Of a DNA stretch of 64,000 nucleotides, positions 9,233-47,433 are shown piece after piece. The first letter of the stretch is position 1. The number at the start of each line of letters is the position of its first letter. This DNA is from Thauera propionica (GTDB taxonomy: Bacteria > Pseudomonadota > Gammaproteobacteria > Burkholderiales > Rhodocyclaceae), in assembly GCF_002245655.1 (NCBI RefSeq), contig NZ_NOIH01000008.1:1-64000 (forward strand), in the 5' to 3' direction. A program made the translations under genes and the position numbers. Below the pieces are notes generated by a model. It saw nothing but the letters and a program-made list of their open reading frames with translations, was not told the DNA's origin and searched no databases.

Positions 9233-9351
9233 ACGATCTGCCGGTTCGGGATGTTCCCCCGCACCGAACGGATTCGAATCTGCTCAAGCCGTTCCGCCGT
9301 CAGCCCTGATGGCACACCGACTTTCATCAGTATCGTTCGAGGATTCTCACC

Positions 9352-9816: not shown

Positions 9817-9897
9817 GCCGTCTCACCTGATCCAGGGGTGATGCGCCGCTAGCGTCGGCCTCATCCCGATTCCCTTCATTCGGATACAGCAGAGTCT

Positions 9898-9940: not shown

Positions 9941-9990
9941 GTGATCACCGCGTTGCAGTTTGGCTGTCTCCTGCATTTCGAGAAAAGCAC

Positions 9991-32771: not shown

Positions 32772-32786
32772 ACGTCGGTATTTCCG

Positions 32787-33116: not shown

Positions 33117-33117
33117 A

Positions 33118-33137
33118 CGCCGGTCGCTTCACCGGCG
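33118..33137. terminator. Hairpin between convergent genes
   Basis: CGCCGGT (33118-33124) pairs with ACCGGCG (33131-33137) between the DUF3301 gene and folE. It has no U-tract, so termination is only suggested. Confidence 0.35.
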
Positions 33138-33152
33138 GCGCGGCTTGCGGCC

Positions 33153-33782
33153 TCAACCCGAGATGGCGCGCAGGAATTCGTTGCGGGCCTGTGCGGAGCG
33201 TTCGAATTCACCGCTGAAAGCCTGCGTCACGACACGCTCGTCGCCGCGCCTGTCCTCACCCAGCAGCAGGCACAGCTGTTCCGCCTCGATGATGCAGGCC
33301 GCGCCGGCGGCCTTGCCGTGCTGCATCAGCGCGTCGGCGATGTCCCGCGTCATCCATTCCTGGTAGGTGAAGCGGTGGCCGATCGCATCGACCAGCCGCG
33401 CGATGCGACCGAAGCCGTGCAAGCGTCCGCCTGGCAGGTAGGCGACGTGCGCCACACCGCGGAAGGGCACCAGGTGGTGCGGGCAGACCCCGTGCACCGC
33501 GATGCCGCGCACCACGACCATGTCGCGGCGCTCGTCCTCGAAGCCGTCTCCGAGCACCTCGGCGGGGTCGAGGTCGTAGCCGCCCAGCAGGCGCTTCTGC
33601 CACAATTCGCGTACGCGTTGCGCGGTGCGGCCCGTGTGCGAGGTGTCCGCGTCGACGCCGCAGGCGCGCAGCAGGTCGCCAATGGCGCGCTCGAAGGCCG
33701 GGGCGTCGAAGCTGCCCGTGCGGGCGATGCCGACGCTGCGCGGGTGGGGCAGGGCGGAGTGATCGTGGTCGTGTCTGGACAT
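33153..33782 (-). CDS. folE: GTP cyclohydrolase I
   Basis: The first enzyme of the folate/pterin pathway, converting GTP to dihydroneopterin triphosphate. It has 209 residues. The zinc ligands C100 and H103 (GVCPHHLVPF) and C171 (AEQLCLLL) have the 71-residue spacing of the E. coli enzyme (C110/C181). The segment around the ligands is divergent (CPHH instead of CEHH, LCLLLGEDRRG instead of LCMTMRG), so it may be a paralogue of the main folE. The ATG at 33782 is chosen; nine extra upstream codons are open. The N-terminus has a His-rich HDHDH stretch. Confidence 0.87.
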   Translation of the reverse strand: MSRHDHDHSALPHPRSVGIARTGSFDAPAFERAIGDLLRACGVDADTSHTGRTAQRVRELWQKRLLGGYDLDPAEVLGDGFEDERRDMVVVRGIAVHGVCPHHLVPFRGVAHVAYLPGGRLHGFGRIARLVDAIGHRFTYQEWMTRDIADALMQHGKAAGAACIIEAEQLCLLLGEDRRGDERVVTQAFSGEFERSAQARNEFLRAISG

Positions 33783-33864
33783 GGCGCTGCTCCACGCGCG
33801 TCGGCGCAAACGGGGACGACATGATACGCGGATCGTGCGGCCGCGGTCCGAAACGGCGGAGATC

Positions 33865-34461
33865 TCAGGCGATGAAGACGGGGTCCGAGAACACCAGCGT
33901 GCCGTCCTTGCGCATCATCAGATTGTTCGCGTTCAGGATGTCGGGCAGCACGTGGTACTCCTCGACGAAGTCCGACAAGGCCTTGAGCGCCTGCTGCATG
34001 CTTTCGGTCATCGCCAGCGGATTGACCGTCATGTGATACAGGGCGATGCGCCCCATGTCCATGCCCAGGCGACTCCAATGCTCGCACGCCGACCAATAGG
34101 TATCGATCAGGCGCAGCGCGAGGTCTGAGGCGGGCGAATCCTGGTCGAGCGGATACAGCTTCTCCATCTCGATCAGGTGCAGCGGATAGCCGGAAATGGC
34201 ACGGCCGACGACGCCGTGGTCGGCGAAGATGACCGGGAAGTGCTCGCCGCACGGACGATCGTCGGCGGTATAGAGGAAGTAGTCGGCGGGCGAACTGACG
34301 ATCTTGTAGACCCGTTCGCCGTCGCCCTTGTCGAGCACGATCGAATACTCGCCGCGGCCGATCTCCGGCTTGCCGTCGAGCAGCGGATGCGCCGGCACCG
34401 GGTCCGGCAGCAGCACGCCGCCACGACCAATGCGGGCGCGTGCTGCAGCGAGGTCGATCAT
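33865..34461 (-). CDS. Small protein-kinase-like protein of unknown function
   Basis: I do not recognise the family, but the 198-residue chain carries the order of a protein-kinase-like fold. There is a glycine loop G35-R-G-E-Y-S (EIGRGEYSIVL), a lysine in VYKI (K53), a hinge-like LIEMEKLYPL (about 96-105), a catalytic-loop-like D174 with N179 (PDILNANNLM), and D193 in SDPV where DFG would be. D-to-N and D-to-D distances (5 and 19) match kinases. The C-lobe is very small. It lies between folE and fabI on the same strand, 19 bases from fabI's stop. Substrate and activity are unknown; it could also be a pseudokinase or small-molecule kinase. Confidence 0.7.
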   Translation of the reverse strand: MIDLAAARARIGRGGVLLPDPVPAHPLLDGKPEIGRGEYSIVLDKGDGERVYKIVSSPADYFLYTADDRPCGEHFPVIFADHGVVGRAISGYPLHLIEMEKLYPLDQDSPASDLALRLIDTYWSACEHWSRLGMDMGRIALYHMTVNPLAMTESMQQALKALSDFVEEYHVLPDILNANNLMMRKDGTLVFSDPVFIA

Positions 34462-34480
34462 GGGCTCCCCTCCCTTGTGC

Positions 34481-35260
34481 TTACGCCATGATGTTATAGC
34501 CGGCGTCGACGAAATGCACCCCGCCGGTCACCAGGCGGCCGGCGTCGGACACCAGAAAGGCGGTCAGCGCGCCGATGTCTTCCGGCGTCACCAGCGCATG
34601 CATCGGCGAACGCTCGACGGCGGCGGCCATCAGGCCGTCGAAGCCGGCGATGCCGGAGGCTGCGCGGGTCATCAGCGGGCCGGGCGACACGGCATTCACG
34701 CGGATGCCCTTGGCGCCGAGTTCGGCCGCCATGTAGCGGGTCGCCGCCTCGAGGGCGGCCTTGCACAGGCCCATCACGCCGTAGTTGGGGATGACCTTTT
34801 CCGAGCCGAGGTAGGTCATCGTCACCAGCGCGCCGCCGCCGGCCTTCTCCAGCAGCGGTTCGGCCTTCTTGGCGAGGCGAACGAAGGAATGGGTCGACAC
34901 GTCCATCGCCAGCGCGAAGCCGTCGGCCGAGGTGTCCACAACGCGGCCATGCAGGTCGTCGCGCTTGGCGAAAGCCATGCTGTGCACCGCGAAGTCGAGC
35001 TTGCCGTAGCGCGCATCGATCTCCGCGAAGGCGGCATCCATGGTTTCCTGCTTGGTCACGTCGAGCAGGAACACGTCCTCGACGCCAAGACGGTGGATGA
35101 CCGGCTCGATGAAGGCGCGGGTCTTCTCGTTCTGGTAGGTGATGATCAGCTTGGCGCCTGCTTGCGCGCAGGCCTCCGCGACGCCGGTGGAAATCGACTT
35201 CTCGTTGGCGATGCCCGTGACGAGCCCGACCTTGCCCTGCAGATTGACGATGGGATTCAT
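34481..35260 (-). CDS. fabI: Enoyl-[acyl-carrier-protein] reductase (NADH)
   Basis: The last reductive step of type II fatty-acid elongation and the target of triclosan. A 259-residue short-chain dehydrogenase: the cofactor segment is GLVTGIANEKSIS near the N-terminus, and the catalytic region TYLGSEKVIPNYGVMGLCK has the Y-x6-Y / Y-x6-K arrangement of FabI. The ATG at 35260 gives the typical start MNPIVNLQGK and has GAGG upstream; the frame stays open far upstream but that part is antisense to the next gene. A good promoter lies just upstream. Confidence 0.95.
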   Translation of the reverse strand: MNPIVNLQGKVGLVTGIANEKSISTGVAEACAQAGAKLIITYQNEKTRAFIEPVIHRLGVEDVFLLDVTKQETMDAAFAEIDARYGKLDFAVHSMAFAKRDDLHGRVVDTSADGFALAMDVSTHSFVRLAKKAEPLLEKAGGGALVTMTYLGSEKVIPNYGVMGLCKAALEAATRYMAAELGAKGIRVNAVSPGPLMTRAASGIAGFDGLMAAAVERSPMHALVTPEDIGALTAFLVSDAGRLVTGGVHFVDAGYNIMA

Positions 35261-35304
35261 GTTTTCAGTCCTCGCAATAAAGGGGTTTTTGTGCGTTGCG
35301 CAAA

Positions 35305-35332
35305 ACTGTATCAGAGCATCGGGCGATGACAA
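35305..35332 (-). promoter_or_regulatory. Candidate sigma-70 promoter for fabI
   Basis: On the minus strand TTGTCA (35332-35327), a 16-bp spacer and TACAGT (35310-35305) end 44 bases before the fabI ATG. Confidence 0.55.
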
Positions 35333-35397
35333 TCTTTCGCATTTTTCGTGACGAAACCGACAGGTGCCGATGGGATCGATTGGAGTATATTCTGCAT

Positions 35398-35420
35398 TGC
35401 AGCATTCACGAACTGCTGCA
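35398..35420. repeat. Inverted repeat upstream of the HAD-SAK gene
   Basis: TGCAGCA (35398-35404) and TGCTGCA (35414-35420) are perfect inverted arms around 9 bases, just after a TATATT (35386-35391) that could be a -10, and 30 bases before the ATG at 35450. It may be an operator or an mRNA hairpin. Confidence 0.35.
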
Positions 35421-35449
35421 TCACGCCAATTTGGCATTGAGAGTGCAAC

Positions 35450-35959
35450 ATGACACGCAACGCATACATCTTCATGGACTTCGACGGCGTCACCCATCCC
35501 TGGGGCGAGGTCGAGGATTTTCGCTGCCTGCCGCTCATCGAGGCGGTCGTGCGCGAATTCGAAGAGGCGCGCGTGGTGATCGCGTCCGACTGGCGCATGC
35601 TGTTCTCGATGCAGAAGCTCGTGGCGCGGTTCTCCGAGGACATCCGTCCGCGCATCGTCGGCGCCACGCCGCATGTGTTGCCCAAGCACGGCGCGGAACT
35701 GCACGGTTTGCGCGAACGCGAGGCGATGCTGTGGCTCGCCCAGCACGAAGCGGACCATCGCAATGCAGCCTGGTGCGCTCTGGATGATGCGCCGGGTAAC
35801 TGGATGACCCGTTCGCGCCTGTTGCTGACCGATTTCAAGCGCGGTTTCACCGATGAGGACGCGAGCGCGCTGCGGCGTCTGCTTCAGGATTTCCGCGACG
35901 GTCGCGAGCACCGCATCGAGTCCGACTCACCGTCGCTGTGGGCGCGCAGCATTGCCTGA
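35450..35959 (+). CDS. HAD-like protein of the Swiss-Army-Knife RNA-repair HAD type
   Basis: A 169-residue HAD-fold protein. Motif I is D10-F-D12-G (FMDFDGVTHPW), motif II is S46 in VVIASDWRM, and the acidic motif is D112-D113 in ALDDAPGNW. This pattern fits the HAD_SAK family, described by comparative genomics as a phosphatase-like domain found in RNA-repair systems and also as stand-alone proteins. Here no ligase or kinase partner is adjacent, so the role (RNA-end or small-molecule phosphatase) is open. It is divergent from fabI. Confidence 0.7.
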   Translation: MTRNAYIFMDFDGVTHPWGEVEDFRCLPLIEAVVREFEEARVVIASDWRMLFSMQKLVARFSEDIRPRIVGATPHVLPKHGAELHGLREREAMLWLAQHEADHRNAAWCALDDAPGNWMTRSRLLLTDFKRGFTDEDASALRRLLQDFRDGREHRIESDSPSLWARSIA

Positions 35960-36042
35960 GCCCTGCGGCCGCGTCGCGGCCGATTGCCTAGCCCGGTGAC
36001 GCTGTGCACAATGGGCGCCCTTTCCCCGATACGGCTGCCCTC

Positions 36043-36813
36043 ATGACTGCGACCGACTCCGTCCTCGCTCCCGATCCGCTTGCCGCCTGCGTTGATGCGC
36101 AGACGCAGCGCCAGGCCGCTCATCTGGCCCAGGAGGCGTTTGCACGCGTGTTCCGGCTCAGCGTAGGCGAGACTGACGAGATCCGCCTGCGCGGCGTGGA
36201 GCAACTGCGCCGCGAGTTGGGCGACTGGGCGGAGGCAGACGCTGGCGACGAGGCGCGGGCGTTGCGCCTTGCCTTGCTGCTGACCGGCATGGACCAGTGG
36301 GGGCTGGCGTGGAGTCAGGCCTTCGAGCTGGTCGCGATCCCGGGCCTGACCGAGCTGATCGGCTCGCTGCGTACCGGCCTGGACGAGGCGGGCGAGGCGC
36401 GCTTCCTGCAGCAGTTCGAGGCCATTGGCCGTGCTGAGGAGAACGCCATCGACTTCAAGGTCGAGCTGCGACGCGGCATCCATCTGGCTCTGTGGCATTC
36501 GTCGATCGCCACGCAGGATCGCGACGAGGCCCTGCGGCTCGCGACCCAGCTCGGCAGCCGATTGCTGGGCCTGCTGCGCGAGATGCCGGTCGCCGGCTGG
36601 CGCCTGGTGGCCGATGCGCTCGCCTTCATACAGATCCGCTGCCTGGCCGACGGCCTCGCCGCCGAAGGGATTGGCCAGGAGGCAACGCAGGCGCTGCTGG
36701 CTGCCTTGGCACGCGAGCTGCCGGCGGCGCAGCGCGACCTGGTGATGGCCCATGCGGCACGTGCCGTGATCGCCTGGCAGCAGGCCAACCGTCCGCCCGA
36801 GCAGGTGCACTGA
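36043..36813 (+). CDS. Uncharacterised all-helical protein, coupled to yaeQ
   Basis: I do not recognise this 256-residue protein. It is Ala/Leu/Glu/Arg-rich, predicted almost entirely helical, with no signal peptide, transmembrane segment or cysteine cluster. The ATG at 36043 is chosen over an upstream ATG 39 bases earlier because the added residues look random. Its TGA overlaps the ATG of the next gene (TGATG), so it is translated together with the YaeQ-like protein. An ACAATGGGCGCC stretch at about 36008 resembles the window's recurring promoter signature. Confidence 0.7.
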   Translation: MTATDSVLAPDPLAACVDAQTQRQAAHLAQEAFARVFRLSVGETDEIRLRGVEQLRRELGDWAEADAGDEARALRLALLLTGMDQWGLAWSQAFELVAIPGLTELIGSLRTGLDEAGEARFLQQFEAIGRAEENAIDFKVELRRGIHLALWHSSIATQDRDEALRLATQLGSRLLGLLREMPVAGWRLVADALAFIQIRCLADGLAAEGIGQEATQALLAALARELPAAQRDLVMAHAARAVIAWQQANRPPEQVH

Positions 36814-37361
36814 TGGCGCTGAAGGCGACGATCTTCAAGGCCGACATCCAGATCGCGGACATGGATCGCGGCCACTATGCCGACTACAGCCTGACGCTCG
36901 CACGTCATCCGTCCGAGACGGACGAACGCATGATGGTGCGCCTGCTGGCTTTTGCGCTGTTTGCCGATCCCGCGCTGGCGTTCGGCAAGGGGCTGTGCGT
37001 CGATGACGAGCCCGACCTGTGGCAGAAGGACCTGACCGGCGCCATCGAGCGCTGGATAGACGTCGGCCAACCCGACGAGAAGTGGGTGCGCAAGGCGTGT
37101 GGCCGGGCGGCAGAAGTTGTCGTGCTGACCTACGGTCGGGCGCTCGAGGTGTGGTGGGCGGGCGTGCGCGACAAGCTTTCGCGCCAGCCGACGCTGAAGG
37201 TGATCGAGATCTCGCGCGAGGTGAGCAGCGAACTGGCGAAGCTGGCCGAACGCACGATGCGCCTGCAGTTCAGCATCCAGGACGGCCACGTGTGGGTGAC
37301 CAACGGCCGCGACACGGTGCAGATCGAGCCGCGCAGCCTGCTCGGCGCCGACCGCGTCTAG
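36813..37361 (+). CDS. yaeQ: YaeQ family protein
   Basis: A 182-residue protein with the YaeQ hallmark start MALKATIFKADIQIADMDRGHY and the conserved PDEKWVRKACGRA segment. Structures of the family show a PD-(D/E)XK nuclease-like fold; E. coli YaeQ was found as a suppressor of RfaH loss, but the biochemical role is unsettled. Its start overlaps the stop of the preceding uncharacterised gene by one base. It is convergent with the alpha/beta hydrolase at 37377. Confidence 0.9.
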   Translation: MALKATIFKADIQIADMDRGHYADYSLTLARHPSETDERMMVRLLAFALFADPALAFGKGLCVDDEPDLWQKDLTGAIERWIDVGQPDEKWVRKACGRAAEVVVLTYGRALEVWWAGVRDKLSRQPTLKVIEISREVSSELAKLAERTMRLQFSIQDGHVWVTNGRDTVQIEPRSLLGADRV

Positions 37362-37376
37362 CGTCCGGCGCGCCAG

Positions 37377-38258
37377 TCAGTCCGTAGCCAGCAGGAAGGC
37401 TGAAATGGCCCTGGCTGCGCGATCCGGATCTTCCTGCATGAAGCAGTGCCCACCCGGCAACACCTCGCGGCGTGCGACGGGACTGCTGCGCGTCCAGCGC
37501 TCCACTGCGCGGGCGGCGAAGGGGTAGGTGTCCTCGCCGCGCAACACAAGCGTCGGCGTGCTGATGCGGGCCAGCGATGTCCACAGCCGGCGCGGATACG
37601 AGCCGAAGATCTCCGCTTCGCGCGACGGGCGGCATTTCAGTTCGACACCGCCGCCCGGATGATCGCGCAGCGCGTGCTGCACATAGGCCTGCAGCGCGTC
37701 CTCGCGCCAGCCCTTGAACATGCCGCGGTTGCGCAGGCCGCTGGCCGCTTCCTCTCTGTTGTTCCAGTGGTGCCGGCGGCTGCGGGCGCGCTGGGCCAGG
37801 GCGTTGCGCGAGAGAAGACCAGCCACATCCGACAGCGCCATCAGTCCGATCATGGCGGGCGGGAACAGTACCGGGTCGAGCAGCACCGCGCGGGCGAAGC
37901 TTCCCCGCGAGCGCGCGAGCATCAGGGTGGTGAGGACCGAGCCGAAGCTGTGGCCGACGGCATGGACCTCGACGGCACCGAAGCGCGGCTGATGCGCCTG
38001 CCAGGCTTCGAGCGCGAACTCGGCGCACGCGTTCCAGCCCGGGAAGCGACCGCCGTGGTCGCTGTCGCCGTGGCCCAACACATCCGACAGGAAGAGGTCG
38101 AAGTGTTCGGACAGGCGCGCGAGCATCGGTGCATACGTCAGGCTGCAGTAGCCGTTGCCGTGCAGGAAGTGGATGACGGGACGCCCGGACGGCGGCGAGT
38201 GCTGGCCGCGCAGCGTGTGTCCGTTGGCGAGGCGGTGGGACCAGGGCAACAGTTGCAT
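37377..38258 (-). CDS. Alpha/beta hydrolase
   Basis: A 293-residue alpha/beta hydrolase-fold protein with oxyanion strand FLHGNGY, nucleophile S104 (GHSFGS) and a C-terminal catalytic His in PGGHCFMQEDP. The substrate is unknown. It begins 28 bases after the stop of the large GGDEF/EAL gene on the same strand and may be the last gene of that operon, or have its own start signal. Confidence 0.85.
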   Translation of the reverse strand: MQLLPWSHRLANGHTLRGQHSPPSGRPVIHFLHGNGYCSLTYAPMLARLSEHFDLFLSDVLGHGDSDHGGRFPGWNACAEFALEAWQAHQPRFGAVEVHAVGHSFGSVLTTLMLARSRGSFARAVLLDPVLFPPAMIGLMALSDVAGLLSRNALAQRARSRRHHWNNREEAASGLRNRGMFKGWREDALQAYVQHALRDHPGGGVELKCRPSREAEIFGSYPRRLWTSLARISTPTLVLRGEDTYPFAARAVERWTRSSPVARREVLPGGHCFMQEDPDRAARAISAFLLATD

Positions 38259-38286
38259 TCGATTCGGAATCCCGTTGGGGAAGGGG

Positions 38287-41200
38287 TCAACCGCGGCCCG
38301 CAGCCCCGTCGTCGGTCGCGCTGTACCAGGCGATCCAGCCGGGGATGTGGGCTGCGGGCATCGGCCGCGCGATGCCGTAGCCCTGACCCAGCCGGCAGCC
38401 GATCTCGATCAGTGCCTGCGCATGATCCGTGGTCTCGACGCCTTCCGCAATGACGCGGCGGTCGAAGGCTTGGGCCAGATGGACGACACTCAGCACGATC
38501 GCCCGGTCGTCGGCGTCGGAAAGCATGTCGCGTACGAAGCTGCGGTCGATCTTCAGCAGGTCGACAGGCAGGCGGCGGAAGTAGGCGAGCGAGGCGTATC
38601 CGGTGCCGAAATCGTCGAGGGCGAGTTGCACGCCCAGCGCACGGCAGGCCGTCAGCACCTCGAGCGCGGCATTCATGTCGGTGATCGCGGTCGACTCGAC
38701 GATCTCTAGTTCGAGCCGGTCGGGCGTGATGTCCGGATGTTCGTCGAGCATCGCCTTGAGGTCGGCGACAAAGTTCGCCTTGAGCAGGTGGCGCGCGCTG
38801 ATATTGACCGCGACCGGCAGGTCGAGGCCTGCCGCACGCCAGCTTGCCACTTGTTCCAGTGCGGTGCGGATGACCCATTCGCCCAGGGCGATCTCGAGTT
38901 CGTTGCCTTCGAGGGCGGGCAGGAAGTCGGCGGGTGGGCGGAGTCCTTCTTCGGGGTGGTTCCAGCGTAAGAGTGCTTCCGCGCCCACTGGCCGGCGCTC
39001 GAGCATGTCGACCTTGGGCTGGAAGTGAAGCACGAACTCGCCCTGCTCGAGCGCCTGCGCCAGCCGCCGCAGCAGCTCCTGCTTCTGGCGCAGCGAGGCC
39101 TCGACGCTGGCGTCGAACACCTGTACGCAGTTGCGCCCGCGCTGCTTGGCGAGGTACATCGCCTGGTCCGCATGGCGAAGCAGGGTATCGGCGTCGACCG
39201 GGTCCTCCGGGTACAGCGCGACGCCGATACTGGCCGATACGGCCACGCTGTCGTCCCGTAACTGGACGGGCTGGCTGACGGCTTCGAGGATGCGGTCGAA
39301 GACGCCGTGGCTCTCGAGGTCGCCGAGCAGGAGTACGAACTCGTCGCCACCGAGGCGCGCAACGGTGTCGACCGAGCGCAGCATGGACTGCAGGCGGTCG
39401 ACGATCTCGACCAGCAACTGGTCGCCCGCCTCATGGCCGTACTGGTCGTTGATCGGCTTGAAGCCGTCGAGGTCGAGCAGGCACACCGCCAGCGGCTTGC
39501 GGCTGCGATCGGCATGCGCGATCGCCTGCCGCAGCCTGTCCTCGAGCAGGCGGCGGTTGGGCACGCCGGTCAGCGGGTCGAAGTGGGCGATGCGGTCAAG
39601 CTCCTCGGCGTGTGCCTTCAGGCGGCTGATATCCGAAAACACCGCGACGTGGTGGATCAGCCGGCCGTTGCTGTCGAGGACGCGGGTAATGGACAGCGAC
39701 TCCGCGAAAAGCTCGCCGTTCTTGCGGCGGTTCCAGACTTCTCCGCGCCAGTGGTCGGTGGTCTGGAGGCTGCGCCACAGCTGCGCATAGAACTCACGCG
39801 ACTGCCGGCCCGAGCTGAGGATGGAGGGGTTCTGCCCCAGCACGTCCTCGCGCGCGTAGCCGGTGATGCGGGTGAAGGACGGATTGACGTCGACGATGCA
39901 GTTATCGGCATCCGTGATCAGGATGGCCTCGTAGCTGTTCTGGAACACGCTGGCAGACAGACGCAGTGCGTCCTCGGCCAGCTTGCGCTCGGTGATGTCC
40001 TCGTGCGTGCCGGCCATCAGCAGCGGCGAGCCGTCGCGCGCGCTGGTGATGACGCTGCCGCAGGCATGGATCCATACCCAGTGTCCGTCCTTGTGCCGCA
40101 TCCTGAGATCGTGGCGGAGACCCGGCAGTTCGCCAGCAAAATGGGCTTTCAGCTTGCGCTCGATGGCAATCTGGTCGTCAGAGTGCGCAAGCCTGCGCCA
40201 GGTCTCGAATGTGATCGGCGCCAGCTCCTCGGGTGCGTAGCCGAGCATTTCCGCCCAGCGCCGGTTGACCTGGAGTTCACCGGTCGGAACTGTCCACTCC
40301 CAGGTGCCGACCTGCGTGGCGGCAATCACGTTGTCCAGGCGTTCGCGTTCGAGCTTCATCGCCACCGCAAGATGCCGGGCCTGGCGGTTGGAACGGTCGA
40401 GCTGGCGGTTACGCCGGGCCAGCCCGAGAGCGAGCATGAGGATGATGGCGCCGGTCCCGAGCAGCGAGATGACGACCGGCTGATAGCGGTCGAGCACGTC
40501 CCGCCAGGTGAACTCGGGCACCTGATCGAACGGGGGGGCACGCAGGCTGCGCATTGCCGATTCGACCGGGCCATAGTCCGCCGGGATGGCAAAGCCATGG
40601 ATGCCGGCGGCGATGGCCGCCGGATCGTCCGCCTCTAGGCTGAGCAATCGGGCTGCGATGAGTCGCGCTGTTTCGCTATTGACCTGCGGCAGCGCGACCA
40701 GCGGCCACTCCGGGTACAGGCGGGTGGAGAGGGCGTACGGAAAGCCGGGCAGGGTCTGGCGGTTCAGGATGCGTAGCTGAGCGATCTCGGTGCGCCCCTC
40801 GCGCGCAAGATCCTCCAGCACGCCGGTGCGGACGAAGCCGGCGTCCACCTCGCCCTTGAGCACGGCATCGACGATGCGATCATGCAGTTGGGCGCTCGAT
40901 TCGAACCGGATGCGGCCGAGATCGAGTCCGGCATCGACGATTTCGTATGCCTGCGACACGAAGCCTCCGAGGTAGCTCGGGGCCGGGGTTGCGACGCGTT
41001 TGCCGTATAGATCGCGCAGCTGGGTGATGTCGGCGCGATCTTCGCGCACGATCATCACGCCGCCGATGGCCGGCACGATGTGGCCCTGTTCCGCGCGGAC
41101 CAGAGTGGCGAGCGCACCGGACAGCAGGTTGCCGGAGCGCAGGTTGATGTAGTGCGCCGGGTTTGTGAAAACGAAATCGAGTTCGTGGCGCTGCAGCGCG

Positions 41201-41409
41201 CTCTCCATCTCGGCCGGGTTCAGCACCCGCAGCCGAACCTCGTGGCCGGGCACGGCCTGCGTGAGGTAGTCGGCAAGGGGCTGCCAGGTGCGTTGCATCA
41301 CGTCCTTGGGACGGTAGCTCAGCACCCCCAGCGTGAGGATCTCCGCCGCCCATGCCGGTGCGGGCAGGAGCAATGCGATCAGCAGCAGGAGCAGCCAGCG
41401 CCGTATCAT
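38287..41409 (-). CDS. Membrane sensor: PhnD-like binding domain + PAS + PAS + GGDEF + EAL
   Basis: A 1040-residue c-di-GMP enzyme with an extracytoplasmic ligand-binding head. In order: signal peptide (1-21, PAWA|AE); PhnD/phosphonate-type substrate-binding domain (about 25-280); transmembrane helix (about 313-333); two PAS domains (about 360-480 and 485-605, the first followed by a PAC-like GTHEDITERK); GGDEF with an intact motif at 687-691 (ARLGGDEF); and EAL with an intact motif at 811-813 (EALLRW), NISARHL, LEIVES, DDFGTGYASL and AEGVE. Both output domains thus look catalytic. Its ATG overlaps the stop of the upstream binding-lipoprotein gene (ATGA), so the two are made together. The ligand is unknown; phosphonate-like or other oxyanions are only a family-level guess. 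Confidence 0.93.
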   Translation of the reverse strand: MIRRWLLLLLIALLLPAPAWAAEILTLGVLSYRPKDVMQRTWQPLADYLTQAVPGHEVRLRVLNPAEMESALQRHELDFVFTNPAHYINLRSGNLLSGALATLVRAEQGHIVPAIGGVMIVREDRADITQLRDLYGKRVATPAPSYLGGFVSQAYEIVDAGLDLGRIRFESSAQLHDRIVDAVLKGEVDAGFVRTGVLEDLAREGRTEIAQLRILNRQTLPGFPYALSTRLYPEWPLVALPQVNSETARLIAARLLSLEADDPAAIAAGIHGFAIPADYGPVESAMRSLRAPPFDQVPEFTWRDVLDRYQPVVISLLGTGAIILMLALGLARRNRQLDRSNRQARHLAVAMKLERERLDNVIAATQVGTWEWTVPTGELQVNRRWAEMLGYAPEELAPITFETWRRLAHSDDQIAIERKLKAHFAGELPGLRHDLRMRHKDGHWVWIHACGSVITSARDGSPLLMAGTHEDITERKLAEDALRLSASVFQNSYEAILITDADNCIVDVNPSFTRITGYAREDVLGQNPSILSSGRQSREFYAQLWRSLQTTDHWRGEVWNRRKNGELFAESLSITRVLDSNGRLIHHVAVFSDISRLKAHAEELDRIAHFDPLTGVPNRRLLEDRLRQAIAHADRSRKPLAVCLLDLDGFKPINDQYGHEAGDQLLVEIVDRLQSMLRSVDTVARLGGDEFVLLLGDLESHGVFDRILEAVSQPVQLRDDSVAVSASIGVALYPEDPVDADTLLRHADQAMYLAKQRGRNCVQVFDASVEASLRQKQELLRRLAQALEQGEFVLHFQPKVDMLERRPVGAEALLRWNHPEEGLRPPADFLPALEGNELEIALGEWVIRTALEQVASWRAAGLDLPVAVNISARHLLKANFVADLKAMLDEHPDITPDRLELEIVESTAITDMNAALEVLTACRALGVQLALDDFGTGYASLAYFRRLPVDLLKIDRSFVRDMLSDADDRAIVLSVVHLAQAFDRRVIAEGVETTDHAQALIEIGCRLGQGYGIARPMPAAHIPGWIAWYSATDDGAAGRG

Positions 41410-42386
41410 GGCCGCACTCCGCTCGGCAGGAAGCGGGGCGTTGCGAGTTCGGCGAGCGAGGCAGGGCCGCGCAGCTGTCCGGCCTGCAGCAGGACGTCGG
41501 ACACCCGGCGTGCGGCATCAAGCAGACGTGAATCGCGCGGGTCGAGATAGCTGCGGTTGGCGTCGATGCCGGGCAGGGATAGGCCGCGATAGAGGCCCAT
41601 GACGGCTTGCCCGGGCAAGCCGAGGTGGCGGGCGAGACGGAAGGCGGTGTCGCCCGGGTTGCGCTGCAGGGCGTGCAGGCCGCGGAAATGGACGGCGATG
41701 AGGTGAGCGATCGCCTTGCGGTGAGCTTCCAGCCAGCCCTGATTCACGGCCAGCACGTCGAAGATGGTGTCGGGGATTCGGCGACTGTCGAACAGGATGT
41801 GGGCATCCTGTGCCAGCAGCGCACTGGTCACCGGCTCGTAGGTGATCAGGGCGTCGATGGTGCCGCGCTGCCAGGCCTCGAGGTGCTGGTCCACCCGCAG
41901 TGGCACGCGGACCACTTCATCGGCCTCAAGGCCGGCATGCCGAAGAAGATGCGCCAGTATGACCCCGCCGAGTGCTCCCTCCTCGACGCCGATGCGCACG
42001 CCGCGCAGGTCGGTGAGCGAGGAGATGGCCGGGCGCGCAAGCACCACGTCCGCGCCGACCGAGACGTCGAATACCAGCACGATCGTCAGCGGAAGGCCTT
42101 GGTCGCGCGCGCGCAGCACTTCGTCAAGGGTGAGGGCAGCGGCGACCACCTCATGGCGGGCGAGCGCCTCCAGTGAGGCGGTGGCGGAGCGTGTCTCGAC
42201 AAGCTGTACCCGGCTGGTGTCAAGCCAACCTTCGTCACGGGCGAGGAACATGAACGCGTAGCCTGGCCATACATGGCTTGCCACTGTCATTGGTCGCGCC
42301 GGTGCGCATCCGCCCAGCGTACCCATGCTGCCCAGCATGAGGCCCGCCGCGATGTTGCGCAGCAAGCTACGCCGGGAATGCATCAT
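41406..42386 (-). CDS. ABC-type substrate-binding lipoprotein (NMT1/SsuA-like), no transporter partners
   Basis: A 326-residue periplasmic binding protein. It has a twin-arginine-like motif (SRRSLLR, residues 4-10) and a lipobox ending at C27 (TLGGC), suggesting a Tat-exported lipoprotein. The mature part has the NMT1/ThiY/SsuA-type fold (HVWPGYAFMFLARDEGWL near the start, then LRGVRIGVEEGALGG, and LITYEPVTSALL). No permease or ATPase gene is adjacent; instead the stop overlaps the start of a GGDEF/EAL sensor by 4 bases. So it more likely presents a ligand to that sensor than feeds a transporter. The ligand is unknown; the family includes nitrate/sulfonate and pyrimidine-precursor binders. 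Confidence 0.88.
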   Translation of the reverse strand: MMHSRRSLLRNIAAGLMLGSMGTLGGCAPARPMTVASHVWPGYAFMFLARDEGWLDTSRVQLVETRSATASLEALARHEVVAAALTLDEVLRARDQGLPLTIVLVFDVSVGADVVLARPAISSLTDLRGVRIGVEEGALGGVILAHLLRHAGLEADEVVRVPLRVDQHLEAWQRGTIDALITYEPVTSALLAQDAHILFDSRRIPDTIFDVLAVNQGWLEAHRKAIAHLIAVHFRGLHALQRNPGDTAFRLARHLGLPGQAVMGLYRGLSLPGIDANRSYLDPRDSRLLDAARRVSDVLLQAGQLRGPASLAELATPRFLPSGVRP

Positions 42387-42432
42387 CGACTGCGAGTGTC
42401 CGTTTCAGAAAGGTGCGAAGGATACGATGCTT

Positions 42433-42478
42433 CGCCATCGCGCCGCCGTGATCGAGTTGTCACGCCGGCGCGATGGCG
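42433..42478. repeat. Long near-perfect inverted repeat between deaD and the binding-lipoprotein gene
   Basis: Arms of 19 bp (42433-42451 and 42460-42478) pair with a single C:C mismatch around an 8-base loop. No U-tract follows on either strand, so it is not a classic terminator. It lies 9 bases from the deaD stop and 47 bases before the lipoprotein ATG; it may stabilise the deaD 3' end or be an operator for the sensor operon. Confidence 0.75.
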
Positions 42479-42487
42479 GGCATGTTG

Positions 42488-44533
42488 TCAGTCCTCGCGG
42501 CGCTTGCGCGGTTTGCCCGCGGAGTAGGGGGCGTTGGCCGGCCGCGAGAACGACTTGTGATGCGCACCGGAGTCCGGTCGTGTGTCGCGGCGCGGCGCCG
42601 GGTGCTCGTCCTTGCGCGGCGCGCCGGCCGGGCGCTTGCCGTCCCGCTCCCAGTTCCCACGCGGCTTGTCGCTGCGCGGGAACTTGTCGCTGCGCTCTGC
42701 GCCGGGCTGCTTGTTCCAGCCGCCTTCGCGGCGCTCGCCCGTGAAGCCTTCGTCACGCGGCGGGCGGCGGCGTTCGGGCGTGGCGGCGGCCTCGGCTGCG
42801 CTCAGGGCGCGGATGTTCAGCGCCATCTGCCGCACGCGCGTGCGCTTGAGGATGCCCATCAGATCCTCGGGCAGGTTGGCCGGCAGCTCCACCGTCGAGA
42901 AGTCGTCGAACAGGTGGATCTGGCCGATGAACTTGCCCTCGATCCCGCCTTCGTTGGCAATGGCGCCGACGATCTCCTTCGGGCTCGCGCCCTGGTTGCG
43001 GCCGACCTCGATGCGATAGCGCACCAACGCGCCGTCGGCGAACGAGCGGCGGCGGGCGAGAATCTCGTCGCGGTTGGGGCGCGGCGTGCGCTCGCGCGGC
43101 GCGCCGGTGGTGAAATGCTCCTCGCGCGGGGCGCGGCCGCCGCTGCCGGGCTCGGCAGTCGCCAGATCCCAGCCGCGGCCGGACTGCTCGATCTGCAGCG
43201 GACGTTCGCGCTGGGCAATCAGGGTCAGTGCGGCAGCGACTTCGTGGATGTCGAGTTCGTTCTCCTCGACCAGGTCGTTGACGACACCCATGAAGAAACC
43301 GAGGTCCTCGCTGCCGATGGCATCGACCACCTGGCGCTTGAACTGCGCCACGCGCAGGTTGGTCACTTCCTCGCTGCTCGGCAGTGCGATCGGGGTGATC
43401 GGCTGGCGGGTGGCACGCTCGATCATCTTCAGCATGCGCGTCTCGCGCGGCGCGACGAAGAGGATCGCCACGCCTTCGCGGCCCGCGCGGCCGGTGCGGC
43501 CGATGCGGTGCACGTAGGCTTCGGTGTCGTAGGGGATGTCGTAGTTGATGACGTGCGAAACGCGCGGCACGTCGATGCCGCGTGCAGCGACGTCGGTGGC
43601 GATGACGATGTCGAGCGTACCGTTCTTGAGCTGCTCGATCACTCGCTCGCGCAAGCCCTGGGTCATGTCGCCATTGAGGGCGGCGGCGGCGTAACCGCGC
43701 GCGGCGAGCTTGTCGGCGAGCTCCTCGGTGGCAATCTTGGTGCGCACGAAGACGATGGCGGCGTCGAAGCTTTCCTCGGCATCGAGGATGCGGGTGAGCG
43801 CATCGAGCTTGTCCACTCCGCGCACCAGCCAGTAGCGCTGGCTGATCTTGGCTACGGTCGAGGTGGTGGCGCGGATCTTGATCTCCTCCGGCTCGCGGAG
43901 GTGGCGGCGGGCAACGTCGCGGATGACGTTCGGCATCGTGGCCGAGAACAGCGCGGTCTGGCGTTCGGCCGGCGTGTGCTCGAGGATCCACTCGACGTCG
44001 TCGATGAAGCCCATGCGCAGCATTTCGTCGGCCTCGTCGAGCACGATGGCCTTGAGCGCGTCGAGTCTGAGGCTCTCGCGTTCGAGGTGGTCCATGACCC
44101 GGCCCGGGGTGCCGACGATGACTTGGGCGCCGCGTGACAGCTGGCGCAACTGCACGACCATGCTCTGACCGCCGTAGATCGGCAGCACGTGGAAGTTCTT
44201 CAGGTGGTGGGCGTACTTGGCGAAGGCCTCGGCGACCTGGATGGCCAACTCGCGCGTGGGGGTGAGCACCAGGACTTGCGGGCGGGTGTCGGAAAGATCC
44301 AGGCGCGCCAGCATGGGCAGCGCAAAGGCAGCCGTCTTGCCGGTGCCGGTCTGGGCCTCGCCGAGGATGTCGCGGCCCGCCAGCAGCTGCGGAATACAGG
44401 CGGCCTGGATGGGCGACGGCGTTTCATAGCCGACTTCGGCAAGCGCAGTAAGGAGGGGCGTGGGCAGGTCGAGGTCGGCGAAGCGCAGGGCAGCCTCGGG
44501 GCTGGCGGGTTCGGTGCGGGCAGAGTCGGTCAT
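42488..44533 (-). CDS. deaD: DEAD-box ATP-dependent RNA helicase DeaD/CsdA-type
   Basis: An RNA helicase for ribosome assembly and mRNA remodelling, especially in the cold. It has 681 residues: Q motif region (YETPSPIQAACIP), Walker A AQTGTGKT (60-67), PTRELA, TPGR, DEAD at 165-168, SAT, and HRIGRTGR in the second RecA domain. A DbpA-type RNA-binding domain follows (about 480-555, YRIEVGRNQGASPKEIVGAI), then an Arg/Gly/Pro-rich basic tail (about 570-681). The ATG at 44533 is preferred over a start 17 codons upstream. It lies downstream of cspA but behind two terminators. Confidence 0.94.
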   Translation of the reverse strand: MTDSARTEPASPEAALRFADLDLPTPLLTALAEVGYETPSPIQAACIPQLLAGRDILGEAQTGTGKTAAFALPMLARLDLSDTRPQVLVLTPTRELAIQVAEAFAKYAHHLKNFHVLPIYGGQSMVVQLRQLSRGAQVIVGTPGRVMDHLERESLRLDALKAIVLDEADEMLRMGFIDDVEWILEHTPAERQTALFSATMPNVIRDVARRHLREPEEIKIRATTSTVAKISQRYWLVRGVDKLDALTRILDAEESFDAAIVFVRTKIATEELADKLAARGYAAAALNGDMTQGLRERVIEQLKNGTLDIVIATDVAARGIDVPRVSHVINYDIPYDTEAYVHRIGRTGRAGREGVAILFVAPRETRMLKMIERATRQPITPIALPSSEEVTNLRVAQFKRQVVDAIGSEDLGFFMGVVNDLVEENELDIHEVAAALTLIAQRERPLQIEQSGRGWDLATAEPGSGGRAPREEHFTTGAPRERTPRPNRDEILARRRSFADGALVRYRIEVGRNQGASPKEIVGAIANEGGIEGKFIGQIHLFDDFSTVELPANLPEDLMGILKRTRVRQMALNIRALSAAEAAATPERRRPPRDEGFTGERREGGWNKQPGAERSDKFPRSDKPRGNWERDGKRPAGAPRKDEHPAPRRDTRPDSGAHHKSFSRPANAPYSAGKPRKRRED

Positions 44534-44611
44534 GGCAGTCGGGCCTTGGTGGCGGCGATGTGCAGCAGCGCTGCGAAGTCGCAATTATCGGCGATTCCGG
44601 CGCGGCAAACG

Positions 44612-44632
44612 AAAAAAGCGGCTCGTGGCCGC
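44612..44632 (-). terminator. Second terminator between cspA and deaD
   Basis: Read on minus, GCGGC-CACGA-GCCGC is followed by six T's (44617-44612). It is a short but typical intrinsic terminator. Confidence 0.65.
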
Positions 44633-44680
44633 GGCGGGGCGAATCGGGCTGGCTGCATCGGCGGCGGGCGCCGGAAAAGC

Positions 44681-44704
44681 AAAAACGCGGCGCAAGGCCG
44701 CGTT
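44681..44704 (-). terminator. Intrinsic terminator of cspA
   Basis: Read on minus, AACGCGGC-CTTGC-GCCGCGTT ends in TTT, 37 bases after the cspA stop. Confidence 0.85.
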
Positions 44705-44741
44705 TCGGATGAATCGATGGACGTCGGAGACGTCGGATCGA

Positions 44742-44951
44742 TTACAGCGGGCGGATGTTGGCCGCCTGCAGGCCCTTCGGGCCGGTCTTGACTTCGAATT
44801 CGACGCGCTGGTTTTCGGCCAGGCTCTTGAAGCCCTTGCTCTGGATTTCAGAGAAGTGGGCGAACAGGTCGTCGCCGCCGTTTTCCGGGGTGATGAAGCC
44901 GAAGCCCTTGGCGTCGTTGAACCACTTGACGGTACCGGTTTGAGTGCTCAT
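44742..44951 (-). CDS. cspA: Cold-shock protein, CspA family
   Basis: A 69-residue-class OB-fold RNA/DNA chaperone (69 codons with stop) that melts mRNA structure. RNP1 is KGFGFI and RNP2 is LFAHFSEI (LFVHFS-like); the start [13 protein letters not shown] is standard. The ATG at 44951 is chosen because the frame upstream lacks conservation. A long AT-richer region precedes it (see 44952-45272), as usual for cold-shock genes. It could equally be a constitutive CspD/CspE-type paralogue; the sequence alone does not tell which. Confidence 0.94.
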
Positions 44952-45111
44952 TTGCGTTCCATATAAAAAATGACTGGGCTTGCGCCCCAAAATGCAGGAA
45001 CGATCAAGAAACGTAATCCAGAGGAATCAGACCGGCACGCGCTCTTGTAGAACACGCTGGGTTACCACCAGAACAACCACTGCTTGAATCGACTGCGAGC
45101 CGCACAATACA

Positions 45112-45152
45112 CGGTTTCCAGGGCATGGGGAATTTATTTCGCGTGGAAACCG
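45112..45152. repeat. 9-bp inverted repeat in the cspA upstream region
   Basis: CGGTTTCCA (45112-45120) and TGGAAACCG (45144-45152) are perfect inverted arms 23 bases apart, next to an A7 run. Their distance fits a repressor or activator binding as a dimer over about two helical turns of spacer. Confidence 0.5.
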
Positions 45153-45237
45153 CAAAAAAACATTTCCGTGGCGTCGAGCCAGGGAAGCCGTCCCGATCGA
45201 GCGTGGGGTTCCACATCGCAATTTGCCGCGAGGGTGG

Positions 45238-45243
45238 AATAAT
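45238..45243 (+). promoter_or_regulatory. Candidate -10 (AATAAT) for ylqF
   Basis: AATAAT followed directly by GCGCGCT, 29 bases before the ylqF ATG, matching the window's recurring promoter signature. There is no clear -35. Confidence 0.4.
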
Positions 45244-45272
45244 GCGCGCTGTTCCAACGTGGTGAATCCAGC

Positions 45273-46193
45273 ATGCCCATACAGTGGTTTCCCGGTCACA
45301 TGGCCTCGGCGCGCAAGAAGGCAGCCGATGCGATGGCGGCCATCGATGTCGTCATCGAGGTGACCGATGCCCGCCTGCCCGAGGCGAGCAGCAATCCGAT
45401 GATTGGCGAGTTGCGGCGCTTCCGTAACCGCCCCTGCCTGAAGCTGCTGAACAAGGCCGATCTGGCCGATCCGGCTGCGACGCAGGCGTGGATGGACTTC
45501 TACAACCGCCAGCCGGGCGTGAAGGCGGTGGCGATCTCGGCGAAGAACCCGTCCGACGCGGCGCGCGTGCCGGCGCTCTGTCGTCAGCTCGCGCCGCACC
45601 GGGATGACGGCACGAAGCCCTTGCGGATGATGATCATGGGCATTCCCAACGTCGGTAAATCGACGCTGATGAATGCCTTGCTCAAGCGCAAGGTGGCCAA
45701 GGTGGGTGACGAGCCAGCGGTGACCAAACACCAGCAGACACTCGACCTCGGGCCGGGCATGACGCTGACCGATACCCCCGGCATGATGTGGCCCAAGATC
45801 GACTACGATTCGGACGGCTACATGCTGGCGGCGAGCCATGCGATCGGTCGCAACGCGGTGATCGACGAGGAGGTCGCGACTTTCCTGGGCGGCATCCTGC
45901 TCGAGCGCTATCCGGCCTTGATCGCGGCGCGCTACCGGATCGATCCGGCCCAGCTCGATGGGCCTGCGCTGCTCGAGGCGGTGGGGCGTCGGCGTGGCTG
46001 CCTCGTCAAGGGCGGCGGGCTGGATCTGGAGAAGGCGGCGCTGATCCTGCTGCAGGACTACCGCGACGGCGTGCTCGGTCGCATCAGCCTTGAGACCCCC
46101 GAATCGCGGGCGCGCATGATCGCGGTCGCAGATGCTGCGCGCGCCGAGGCGTCGGCAGGCGACCAGGCCAGCCCGGACGACGGCGAGGAGTAA
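45273..46193 (+). CDS. ylqF: Ribosome biogenesis GTPase YlqF/RbgA
   Basis: A circularly permuted GTPase that helps late 50S subunit assembly. It has 306 residues with motifs in permuted order: G4 NKAD (60-63), G5 SAK (89-91), G1 GIPNVGKS (123-130) and G3 DTPG (167-170), with the start MPIQWFPGHMASARK typical of the family. The C-terminal tail is acidic. It is convergent with a small Cys-containing gene; a 20-base near-palindrome (46201-46220) lies between. Confidence 0.93.
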   Translation: MPIQWFPGHMASARKKAADAMAAIDVVIEVTDARLPEASSNPMIGELRRFRNRPCLKLLNKADLADPAATQAWMDFYNRQPGVKAVAISAKNPSDAARVPALCRQLAPHRDDGTKPLRMMIMGIPNVGKSTLMNALLKRKVAKVGDEPAVTKHQQTLDLGPGMTLTDTPGMMWPKIDYDSDGYMLAASHAIGRNAVIDEEVATFLGGILLERYPALIAARYRIDPAQLDGPALLEAVGRRRGCLVKGGGLDLEKAALILLQDYRDGVLGRISLETPESRARMIAVADAARAEASAGDQASPDDGEE

Positions 46194-46217
46194 GGGACGT
46201 TAGCGCCGGGGCCGACG

Positions 46218-46433
46218 CTAGGCCTCGGCGACGATCGCAACCCAGCGCAGCCATTGGCCGCAGGCGTTGCGCGGCCCGCGCAGCGAACCGTGCCATGGAC
46301 CTTCGTTGCAGGTGCCGCGGCTGTTTTCCGGGTCGAGCCGCACATTCTGCCCGTCCGCTTCGAGTACGCGCCAGCCACCCCAGCGGTTGCAGGTAGGGCA
46401 GCGGCGGAGTTCGGCGATCAGCGGTGCGGTCAT
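46218..46433 (-). CDS. Small hypothetical protein with CPxC motif
   Basis: A 71-residue frame reading CPTCNRWGGWRVLE near the N-terminus, with two more cysteines (GTC and NAC) later, so a small zinc-ribbon-like fold is conceivable. I do not recognise it. Trp-rich, protein-like composition and the compact fit between neighbours favour a real gene, but no Shine-Dalgarno sequence precedes the ATG at 46433. Confidence 0.5.
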   Translation of the reverse strand: MTAPLIAELRRCPTCNRWGGWRVLEADGQNVRLDPENSRGTCNEGPWHGSLRGPRNACGQWLRWVAIVAEA

Positions 46434-46539
46434 TGGGTTGGCAAGGGGCGGCAGCGGGGCTCGCCGGCAATCATAGTGGTTCGCCGGTGCCGGTGCAGCC
46501 AGGCTGTGGTGGGAGGCGGGGCGACCGCCGGCGCTTTGT

Positions 46540-46545
46540 TATGAT
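46540..46545 (+). promoter_or_regulatory. Candidate -10 (TATGAT) abutting the start of the hydrolase gene
   Basis: TATGAT ends only six bases before the ATG at 46552, so a transcript from it would start at or next to the start codon. The -35 region is poor. Confidence 0.35.
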
Positions 46546-46551
46546 TCGGCG

Positions 46552-47433
46552 ATGAAGAATTCCCGCTCCCGTTTCCTCGACATCCGCGGCCAGCGCCTGC
46601 ATCTGCGCGAATGGGGCGTTAAGGGCGCTCCTCGGCTCTATGTGCTGCATGGCTGGATGGATGCGTCAGCCTCGTTCCAGTTCATCGTCGATGCGCTCAG
46701 GCATGACTGGCATGTGATCGCGCCCGACTGGCGCGGCTTCGGTCAGAGCGCCTGGTGCGGCGGCGACAGCTACTGGTTTCCAGACTATTTCGCCGACCTC
46801 GATGCCATCCTGCGCGTAGTCGAGGGCGAGGACGAGGCGCCGGTGCGCCTTGTGGGCCACAGTATGGGCGGCAACGTCGCGCTGATGTACGCGGGCATCC
46901 GGCCTGCGCGGGTCCGTGGTGTCGTCGCGCTCGATGCCTTCGGCCTGCCGGACCGTCCTGCGGCCGAGGCGCCGGGGCGGTACCAGAAATGGCTGCTTGA
47001 GCTGACGGAAGTCCCGCGACCGCGGGTGTATCCCGACCACGCCGCGCTGGCGGCGCGCCTGCAGCAGGATAATTCGCGTCTTTCGCCTGAGCGGGCGCTG
47101 TGGCTGGCCCGCGAACTGGCACAGGCCGACGGCGAGGGCTTTCGCATCGCGGGCGACCCCGCCCATCGCCGGGTTAATCCGATCCTGTATCGACGCGCCG
47201 AGGCGGAAGCCTGCTGGCGGCGGGTCACCGCGCCGGTGCTGGCACTGGAGCCCGAGGGCGACCGGCTTCGCGAGCGCTTCGGTGTCAGCGACGAGGACCA
47301 TGCCGCGGCCTTCGCCTGCTTCGGAACCATCGATGTGCGCACCGTCGCTGCGGCAGGTCACAACCTGCACCACGATCAGCCCGAGGTGCTCGCCGGAATC
47401 ATCGAGACCTTCTTCCTGTCCGAGCACGTATGA
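46552..47433 (+). CDS. Alpha/beta hydrolase
   Basis: A 293-residue alpha/beta hydrolase with VLHGWMDAS (oxyanion region), nucleophile S104 (GHSMGGN) and a C-terminal AAGHNLHHDQP carrying the catalytic His. The substrate is unknown; it resembles serine hydrolases of the MhpC type. No Shine-Dalgarno sequence is visible and the -10 is nearly at the ATG, so it may be leaderless. Its stop overlaps the ATG of the PHP gene (ATGA), so the two are translated together. Confidence 0.87.
   Translation: MKNSRSRFLDIRGQRLHLREWGVKGAPRLYVLHGWMDASASFQFIVDALRHDWHVIAPDWRGFGQSAWCGGDSYWFPDYFADLDAILRVVEGEDEAPVRLVGHSMGGNVALMYAGIRPARVRGVVALDAFGLPDRPAAEAPGRYQKWLLELTEVPRPRVYPDHAALAARLQQDNSRLSPERALWLARELAQADGEGFRIAGDPAHRRVNPILYRRAEAEACWRRVTAPVLALEPEGDRLRERFGVSDEDHAAAFACFGTIDVRTVAAAGHNLHHDQPEVLAGIIETFFLSEHV

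Follow-up and report, generated by a model that had tools for sequence, protein, structure and literature searches.

NspS is a polyamine-binding, PotD-like protein. In the NspS-MbaA systems of Vibrio cholerae and Sinorhizobium, as excerpts of the literature describe them, a free periplasmic binding protein governs a membrane enzyme of cyclic di-GMP (c-di-GMP) metabolism. A comparable arrangement lies in a stretch of Thauera propionica DNA (assembly GCF_002245655.1, contig NZ_NOIH01000008.1, positions 1 to 64,000; the whole 64,000-nucleotide stretch is called the window): the gene of a solute-binding protein (SBP) adjoins that of a membrane GGDEF-EAL sensor, with no transporter in the operon. 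An earlier note on this DNA, made from the sequence alone, had named NspS-MbaA as precedent, and as a system that works in a like manner it fits. Unlike NspS, the free protein here is a lipoprotein of SsuA/TauA (NMT1) fold rather than a member of the PotD-like family; the sensor head likewise adopts a binding-protein fold, and the outputs of such sensors include histidine kinases. The lipoprotein probably acts in the periplasm as a co-receptor that binds ligand for the sensor, whose gene directly follows, a reading to which we give a probability of roughly 0.77, because the two genes overlap and are co-conserved, close homologues lie outside Ssu-type operons, both partners are predicted to have bilobal folds, and lipoprotein and head diverge together.

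Other described systems share parts of this layout. The AioX-AioS and ArrX three-component systems for arsenic also place a free binding protein and a membrane kinase in one cluster, and AioX and ArrX have the PhnD fold and closely resemble the head considered here (excerpts of PMC5908839); there, however, the PhnD-fold protein is free, whereas here it is fused, a protein of another family is free and the output is GGDEF-EAL. The TtrS and ThsS kinases have a PhnD-like periplasmic head fused to the signalling protein (excerpts of PMC5408782). Residues 22-351 of the window sensor match the NCBIfam TtrS model, but with 128 of the required 750 bits, and, unlike these kinases, the sensor is without HisKA and HATPase domains, signals through GGDEF-EAL and is partnered by a free lipoprotein. 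In Pseudomonas aeruginosa, genes of binding proteins belonging to a different family adjoin those of the sensor kinases AgtS and AruS; the excerpted account of them cautions that proximity of binding-protein and sensor genes need not mean a functional link (PMC11113362).

SsuA/TauA importers have the fold of the lipoprotein in common with this locus, but not its genetic surroundings: in the 64-kb window, home-made profiles at E 1e-4 matched no ATP-binding cassette (ABC) ATPase of Ssu, guanidine or Cys type and no permease of Ssu or guanidine type, other permease kinds not having been sought. The principle of binding-protein-controlled receptors is not new, since excerpts of PMC9602780 hold receptor activation by binding proteins to be general and widespread, citing diguanylate cyclase cases; the pair is a widespread variant of such SBP-controlled receptors, of which no description was found in the open-access literature subset searched. 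Control of this kind is accepted, yet it has been described mostly case by case, and a family with co-inherited free and fused binding proteins and swapped outputs could reveal which part of such a receptor is portable.

Adjacency of lipoprotein and sensor genes

Relatives were collected with a profile (A1) of ten close lipoprotein homologues, which was run against 399 genomes of the order and matched in 97 of them at E <= 1e-15; the same profile yielded 221 relatives on named contigs, where a single-protein query had given none, and the best 80 of these were taken. Together with 19 loci from the first relatives and 80 hand-picked from the order survey, they gave 192 matches above 40 bits, or 184 after removal of identical ones, the window itself being uncounted. 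An ABC operon was called when an ATPase lay downstream on the same strand and a permease was matched as well, the permease profile being limited to the Ssu and guanidine kinds. Among the 103 distinct loci with a lipoprotein of at least 190 bits, the next same-strand gene encodes a membrane sensor in 100; none of the 103 holds an Ssu-type ABC operon or any match to the permease profile. This gene order, recurring in 100 of 103 homologous loci, exceeds chance. At 150-190 bits, a sensor of these kinds follows in one of ten loci and a GGDEF protein in one more (L171); at 40-150 bits, ABC operons account for 35 of 71 loci and sensors for two. Eight of the loci with 150-190-bit binding proteins (L169, L170, L172-L177) form a group with neither an ABC match nor a guanidine riboswitch at the gene. 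The next gene starts at exactly -4 in 66 of 100 sensor-coupled loci versus 3 of 35 ABC-operon loci, as placed by a script that favours the start nearest -4, and the spacing is +20 or nearer in 98 of the 100.

A class-wide sample of 369 genomes, 44 of them matching at E <= 1e-60, gave 30 of its 51 matches as loci, which came to 26 new loci with flanks of about 1.5 kb once the window and three already-seen loci had been removed. A sensor is next in 25 of these (none in L329), with a PhnD head in seven (one with a broken frame, one with a weak head match) and another head in 18; no permease was matched, and an ATPase match lies upstream in L306 and L334. The adjacency is found in beta-, gamma- and deltaproteobacterial and in Magnetococcales contigs. 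It is therefore not peculiar to this locus, and the earlier note's picture of an orphan, sensor-coupled lipoprotein is borne out.

The partners are more diverse than that note had supposed. In the 103 loci they comprise 75 PhnD-headed sensors, 24 with a different head and one kinase without a recognised head (L222), so that the PhnD head is not a needed feature; the peptide patterns of the A1 scan derive from PhnD-paired lipoproteins, which biases the PhnD share in that set. Six of the rows counted by the profile for other heads had also gone into building it, and it contains HAMP and PAS stretches; because it hits parts of PhnD sensors too, its matches count only in the absence of a PhnD match. 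Its weakest rows (L049, L048, L225 and L226) are uncertain, reaching only 30-42 bits; Pfam confirms one of them, L048, as a HAMP-kinase. In seven sensors without a PhnD head, Pfam finds no domain before HAMP (itself below cut-off in L135) and, in six, PAS above cut-off behind it. The PhnD-headed partners divide into 25 kinases, 27 GGDEF proteins (four cut by the contig end), 18 GGDEF-EAL proteins and five that are cut or of other type. With a third of them histidine kinases, a framing specific to c-di-GMP is too narrow.

Shared divergence, exchanged outputs and the Thauera loci

In a quick, midpoint-rooted IQ-TREE tree of 128 lipoprotein rows, the 104 rows of at least 190 bits form one group (Shimodaira-Hasegawa-like approximate likelihood ratio 97). 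The 12 sampled ABC-operon rows fall outside it, as do the sensor-paired L051 and both lipoproteins of L056, a locus (4399-10960) with two tandem pairs of remote lipoprotein and kinase, each with a -4 overlap. Head type requires nine changes in all on this tree (five groups), and output type (kinase, GGDEF or GGDEF-EAL) at least 13 among 67 PhnD pairs, the latter figure being without a shuffle control. Log-identity distances over 44 loci correlate at 0.82 between lipoprotein and head, 0.56 between head and GGDEF domain and 0.51 between lipoprotein and GGDEF domain; the bootstrap range (2.5-97.5%) of the difference between the first two is 0.12 to 0.39, and for distant pairs alone the three values are 0.72, 0.40 and 0.30. 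Over 74 loci the lipoprotein-head correlation is 0.79, the best of 1000 permutations reaching 0.16. Because lipoprotein and head correlate more closely than do head and GGDEF domain within one polypeptide, the former two appear to share the closer history, the GGDEF control being shorter than the domains with which it is compared. Their divergence in step and the repeated change of output together make the lipoprotein and PhnD head look like an exchangeable input module; most likely, many bacteria encode a two-part receptor front end whose signalling output was swapped repeatedly.

Thauera provides a natural experiment in which the same sensor stands at the same locus with the lipoprotein present or absent, the gene order being deaD-(lipoprotein)-sensor-(hydrolase)-yaeQ. 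Among the genomes examined, the lipoprotein occupies this locus only in G000 and G017. Fourteen other Thauera genomes (G012, G011, G025, G020, G004, G008, G007, G024, G003, G005, G027, G023, G019 and G010) have the orthologous sensor without an adjoining lipoprotein match (loci L279-L290, L293 and L294, the head being matched in part in L294; the contig ends too soon upstream to judge in G019 and partly in G020 and G024). The lipoprotein is thus not indispensable to the sensor, contrary to the idea of a fixed partner. All 14 loci retain yaeQ; deaD is unseen in L282, L286 and L293, where contigs end. At E 1e-3 no lipoprotein of the family was found genome-wide in G012, G011, G025, G020, G004, G008, G007, G024 and G019 (G004 and G019 being 86 and 77% complete); in G005, G027, G010 and G023 such a lipoprotein is paired with a PhnD-headed sensor elsewhere in the genome, and in G003 one is paired with a kinase. 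In the same genus, a lipoprotein-sensor pair occurs in G006, G023, G027 and G015.

A tree of 75 paired and 26 unpaired heads has six changes, with both paired heads of this locus next to the lipoprotein-less G012 and inside a wider paired background. Losses of the lipoprotein in Thauera are the simplest reading of it; regain is possible, the relevant branches being weakly supported (82-86). Among 73 paired heads, 57 positions reach at least 85% conservation; the two paired heads that were held out deviate at four and three of these, and 11 of 13 lipoprotein-less Thauera orthologues, the 11 being one lineage, at 9-15, but L258 deviates at two and L290 at four.

Folds, ligands and rival readings

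AlphaFold2 models both binding proteins with high mean predicted local distance difference test scores (94.4 for the lipoprotein, 95.4 for the head). The nearest solved structure is TauA (6ssy, Foldseek E 3.4e-22) for the former and PtxB (5o37, E 2.2e-18) for the latter; the 50 structural matches listed for the head further include PhnD, ArrX and AioX. The lipoprotein matches six NCBIfam families but reaches the cut-off of none, the best being SsuA_fam (92 vs 163.5 bits), with taurine_ABC_bnd at 46/304 and ABC_peri_uca at 46/334 bits. W40, G42, S109, G111 and D113 are identical in all lipoproteins compared (79 PhnD-paired or stand-alone, 28 paired with other heads, 12 from ABC operons and nine others); all but one of the 128 rows have Glu or Asp at position 89, and E135 is kept in 79/79, 24/28, 12/12 and 3/9 of these classes, respectively. 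A strongly conserved pocket, and some transport-type relatives with a known kind of cargo, make identification of the ligand tractable.

ABC transporters under guanidine-I riboswitches import guanidine, according to the excerpted PMC12186494. Their binding proteins are transport-type relatives of the lipoprotein and share with it W40, D113 and E135 as well as an acidic side chain at position 89; unlike it, they are encoded in ABC operons. The 34 loci scanned contain 41 genes of the family, of which 16 are preceded by a guanidine-I riboswitch 50-182 bases ahead of the point where the profile match begins (16/28 at 120-150 bits, 0/9 at 150-190 bits and 0/4 lower); these include 10 of the 14 scanned ABC-operon genes, and L053 is not one of them. 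None was found in the window at 32000-47000, in its own genome or in the 10 pair loci scanned. Two ABC relatives, L052 and L053, lie with a type III glutamine synthetase gene, L052 also with UAAP1 and L053 with a creatininase-family gene. In L233 (7211-7895), two guanidine-I riboswitches point away from each other, with some 430 bases between them.

Since the ABC-type relatives often stand behind guanidine-I riboswitches and the acidic pocket is held in common, a cationic ligand is suggested: the pocket may be assigned to the cationic-ligand type with moderate confidence, a small cation is the likeliest, though weakly supported, candidate for the ligand itself, and a guanidine-like one is a proposal of low confidence. 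Guanidine as such is a lead only, given that the closer 150-190-bit group and the own genome are devoid of the riboswitch. A sulfonate or taurine, an idea that arose from the fold and from the cys sulfate-transport genes beside Thauera and Marinospirillum pairs, is disfavoured, as acidic residues 89, 113 and 135 are not all kept in HMMER alignments of TauA and SsuA.

As a mechanism, the ligand-loaded (or ligand-free) lipoprotein would dock onto the PhnD head of the sensor dimer and shift its transmembrane helices, and the signal, passing via the two PAS domains, would set the balance of c-di-GMP synthesis (GGDEF) and breakdown (EAL). The head may equally be able to function unaided, perhaps by binding a separate ligand, the lipoprotein adding or changing an input and not being the sole one. 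A more specific 'clam-on-clam' proposal, rather doubtful at present, has a guanidinium- or amine-sensing SsuA-fold lipoprotein docking on the fused PhnD head, the pair being an input cassette used across cyclases, cyclase-phosphodiesterases and kinases. If true, it would be a periplasmic sensor for guanidinium- or amine-type compounds, which to our knowledge are sensed only intracellularly, by riboswitches. Two-ligand integration, suggested in the earlier note, is a special case of the co-receptor reading in which the lipoprotein would report a cation, the head would separately bind an anion and the sensor would answer both. The invariant or nearly invariant W40, D113, E89 and E135 of the lipoprotein, together with R194 and His176 of the head (retained in 69 and 49, respectively, of 75 paired heads), are compatible with it; we nevertheless hold it to be unlikely, because, on the HMMER alignment, the window head has Gly148 where PtxB/PhnD-type proteins hold the second pocket serine, the first Ser occurs in only 43 of the 75 (Tyr in the window head), and a degenerate head acting merely as a dock fits equally well.

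Two further readings dispense with a co-receptor. The lipoprotein could be an orphan transport component feeding an ABC permease encoded elsewhere, its adjacency to the sensor reflecting co-regulated uptake and signalling. Its TauA/SsuA importer fold, the ABC operons of half the remote homologues below 150 bits and the cys transporter genes beside some pairs are what one would expect of such a component; that no close homologue lies in an Ssu-type ABC operon, that its divergence follows the PhnD head and that two of the four weak permease matches in its own genome (L303 and L304) adjoin what appears to be a binding protein of their own, the other two being unsettled, make this quite improbable. 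Alternatively, the PhnD head would be the true receptor and the lipoprotein accessory or residual, the sensor functioning the same without it and the pair being held mostly by linkage. The 14 Thauera sensors without an adjoining lipoprotein argue for this, as do the 20 of 30 PhnD-headed loci fetched that have no upstream lipoprotein match (three of them with little upstream sequence), but near-zero-spacing pairs persist in Geobacter, Halomonas, Methylotenera and Thauera, and most lipoprotein-less Thauera heads, albeit of one lineage and with L258 and L290 as exceptions, depart from the paired pattern; we regard it as improbable.

Several observations weigh against the co-receptor reading itself. 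Besides the Thauera sensors that have no lipoprotein beside them, the 10 of 30 fetched PhnD-headed loci that alone have one upstream, and the short control domain of the distance comparison, 10 of the 103 loci of at least 190 bits have a match to an ABC ATPase no more than 4.5 kb away, so that the earlier statement that no ABC genes are nearby holds for the window (in the types profiled) and not for the family; L042 has a complete convergent cysTWA set and a cysB-type gene beside its Thauera pair. The three exceptions to sensor adjacency (L079, L087 and L094) are a stand-alone clade of Methylomicrobium-group lipoproteins. Adjacency, moreover, is co-inheritance and not evidence of contact. In Escherichia coli, according to the Lol rule, an Asp after the lipidated Cys decides between inner- and outer-membrane destinations. 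The residue after Cys27 of the window lipoprotein is Ala, and Asp is found there in 6 of 53 PhnD-paired and 2 of 23 otherwise-paired lipoproteins; by this rule most of them would go to the outer membrane, held there by a short tether that would make it harder for them to dock at the inner one.

In each of the three stand-alone loci an ABC ATPase gene lies 0.2-0.9 kb upstream (that of L079 has tungstate WtpC as its best match, below cut-off), with no permease seen.

The locus and its neighbours

Table 1. Features of the lipoprotein-sensor locus, in window coordinates
Feature	Positions	Strand	Basis
SsuA/TauA-fold (NMT1) lipoprotein, free binding protein, 326 aa	41406-42386	-	Pfam NMT1 1.9e-16
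Signal peptide: SRRSLL twin-arginine-like n-region and lipobox-like Cys27	42306-42386	-	translation
ATGA stop/start overlap of lipoprotein and sensor genes	41406-41409	-	sequence, 4 shared bases
Membrane sensor PhnD-PAS-PAS-GGDEF-EAL, 1040 aa	38287-41409	-	Pfam and motifs
PhnD/PtxB-fold head, periplasmic, residues 22-300	40510-41346	-	Pfam Phosphonate-bd 4.3e-44
Helices 302-324, hydrophobic, probable transmembrane segment	40438-40506	-	AlphaFold2 secondary structure; membrane assignment read from sequence
First PAS domain (PAS_3)	40003-40275	-	Pfam
Second PAS domain (PAS_9)	39625-39930	-	Pfam
GGDEF domain, RxxD I-site and GGDEF intact	39130-39588	-	Pfam 2.3e-48 and motifs
EAL domain, EALLRW, DDFGTG, KID and AEGVE intact	38362-39069	-	Pfam 7.4e-74 and motifs
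Alpha/beta hydrolase, 28-base gap to sensor	37377-38258	-	Pfam Abhydrolase_6 3.2e-17

The gene overlap and the intact GGDEF and EAL motifs reported in the earlier note are as described, with the I-site in addition; we take these to be the catalytic motifs. The sensor has a hydrophobic segment ahead of its PhnD head and a second hydrophobic helix after it. The Tat-type (twin-arginine translocation) lipoprotein signal is there as to its elements, and relatives often retain them (Cys27 in 77 of 82 aligned, an RR-x-hydrophobic-hydrophobic motif ahead of it in 58 of 82); this suggests export of the lipoprotein by Tat without proving it. A promoter and terminator scan gave no promoter-like site and one terminator-like site, not above shuffles. 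The genome has only one gene of the lipoprotein family (E 1e-3), a lipoprotein-less PhnD-PAS-PAS-GGDEF paralogue of the sensor (C23, L058) and another PhnD-headed protein (C4, L295).

The hydrolase, which had been thought possibly to process the ligand, is a neighbour of the sensor in six Thauera loci that lack the lipoprotein (L279, L282, L285, L286, L287 and L293) and occurs in only one of the 103 pair loci (L039, E 1e-10). That role is rejected: the hydrolase belongs to the Thauera locus and not to the pair.

Neighbouring genes of pairs vary by lineage. The pair stands directly behind flagellar genes in six Methylotenera-type loci (L072, L082, L083, L092, L099 and L105; FlgE is confirmed in L072), and a gene reading as HD-GYP adjoins it in 11 loci. 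The cys sulfate-transport genes beside Thauera and Marinospirillum pairs are convergent, with CysA, CysW, CysT and a CysB-family regulator confirmed in L042, CysA and CysW in L077 and CysA in L062. Genes for PAS-containing sigma-54 activators with a common Cys-containing motif lie upstream of pairs in Marinospirillum (L062 4561-5901, L077 4553-5929) and Dechloromonas (L071 2736-4052, minus strand), and a gene reading as a Na/phosphate symporter adjoins the pair in eight loci, seven of them Marinobacter (L120, L125, L126, L130, L133, L134, L136 and L076). Elsewhere in the window there is another GGDEF-EAL stretch at 7451-8665 (plus strand), and a cspA-type thermoregulator RNA (RF01766, 83.4 bits) at 44677-45093 (minus strand), upstream of the DEAD-box helicase gene, has a counterpart in L039 (5295-5711).

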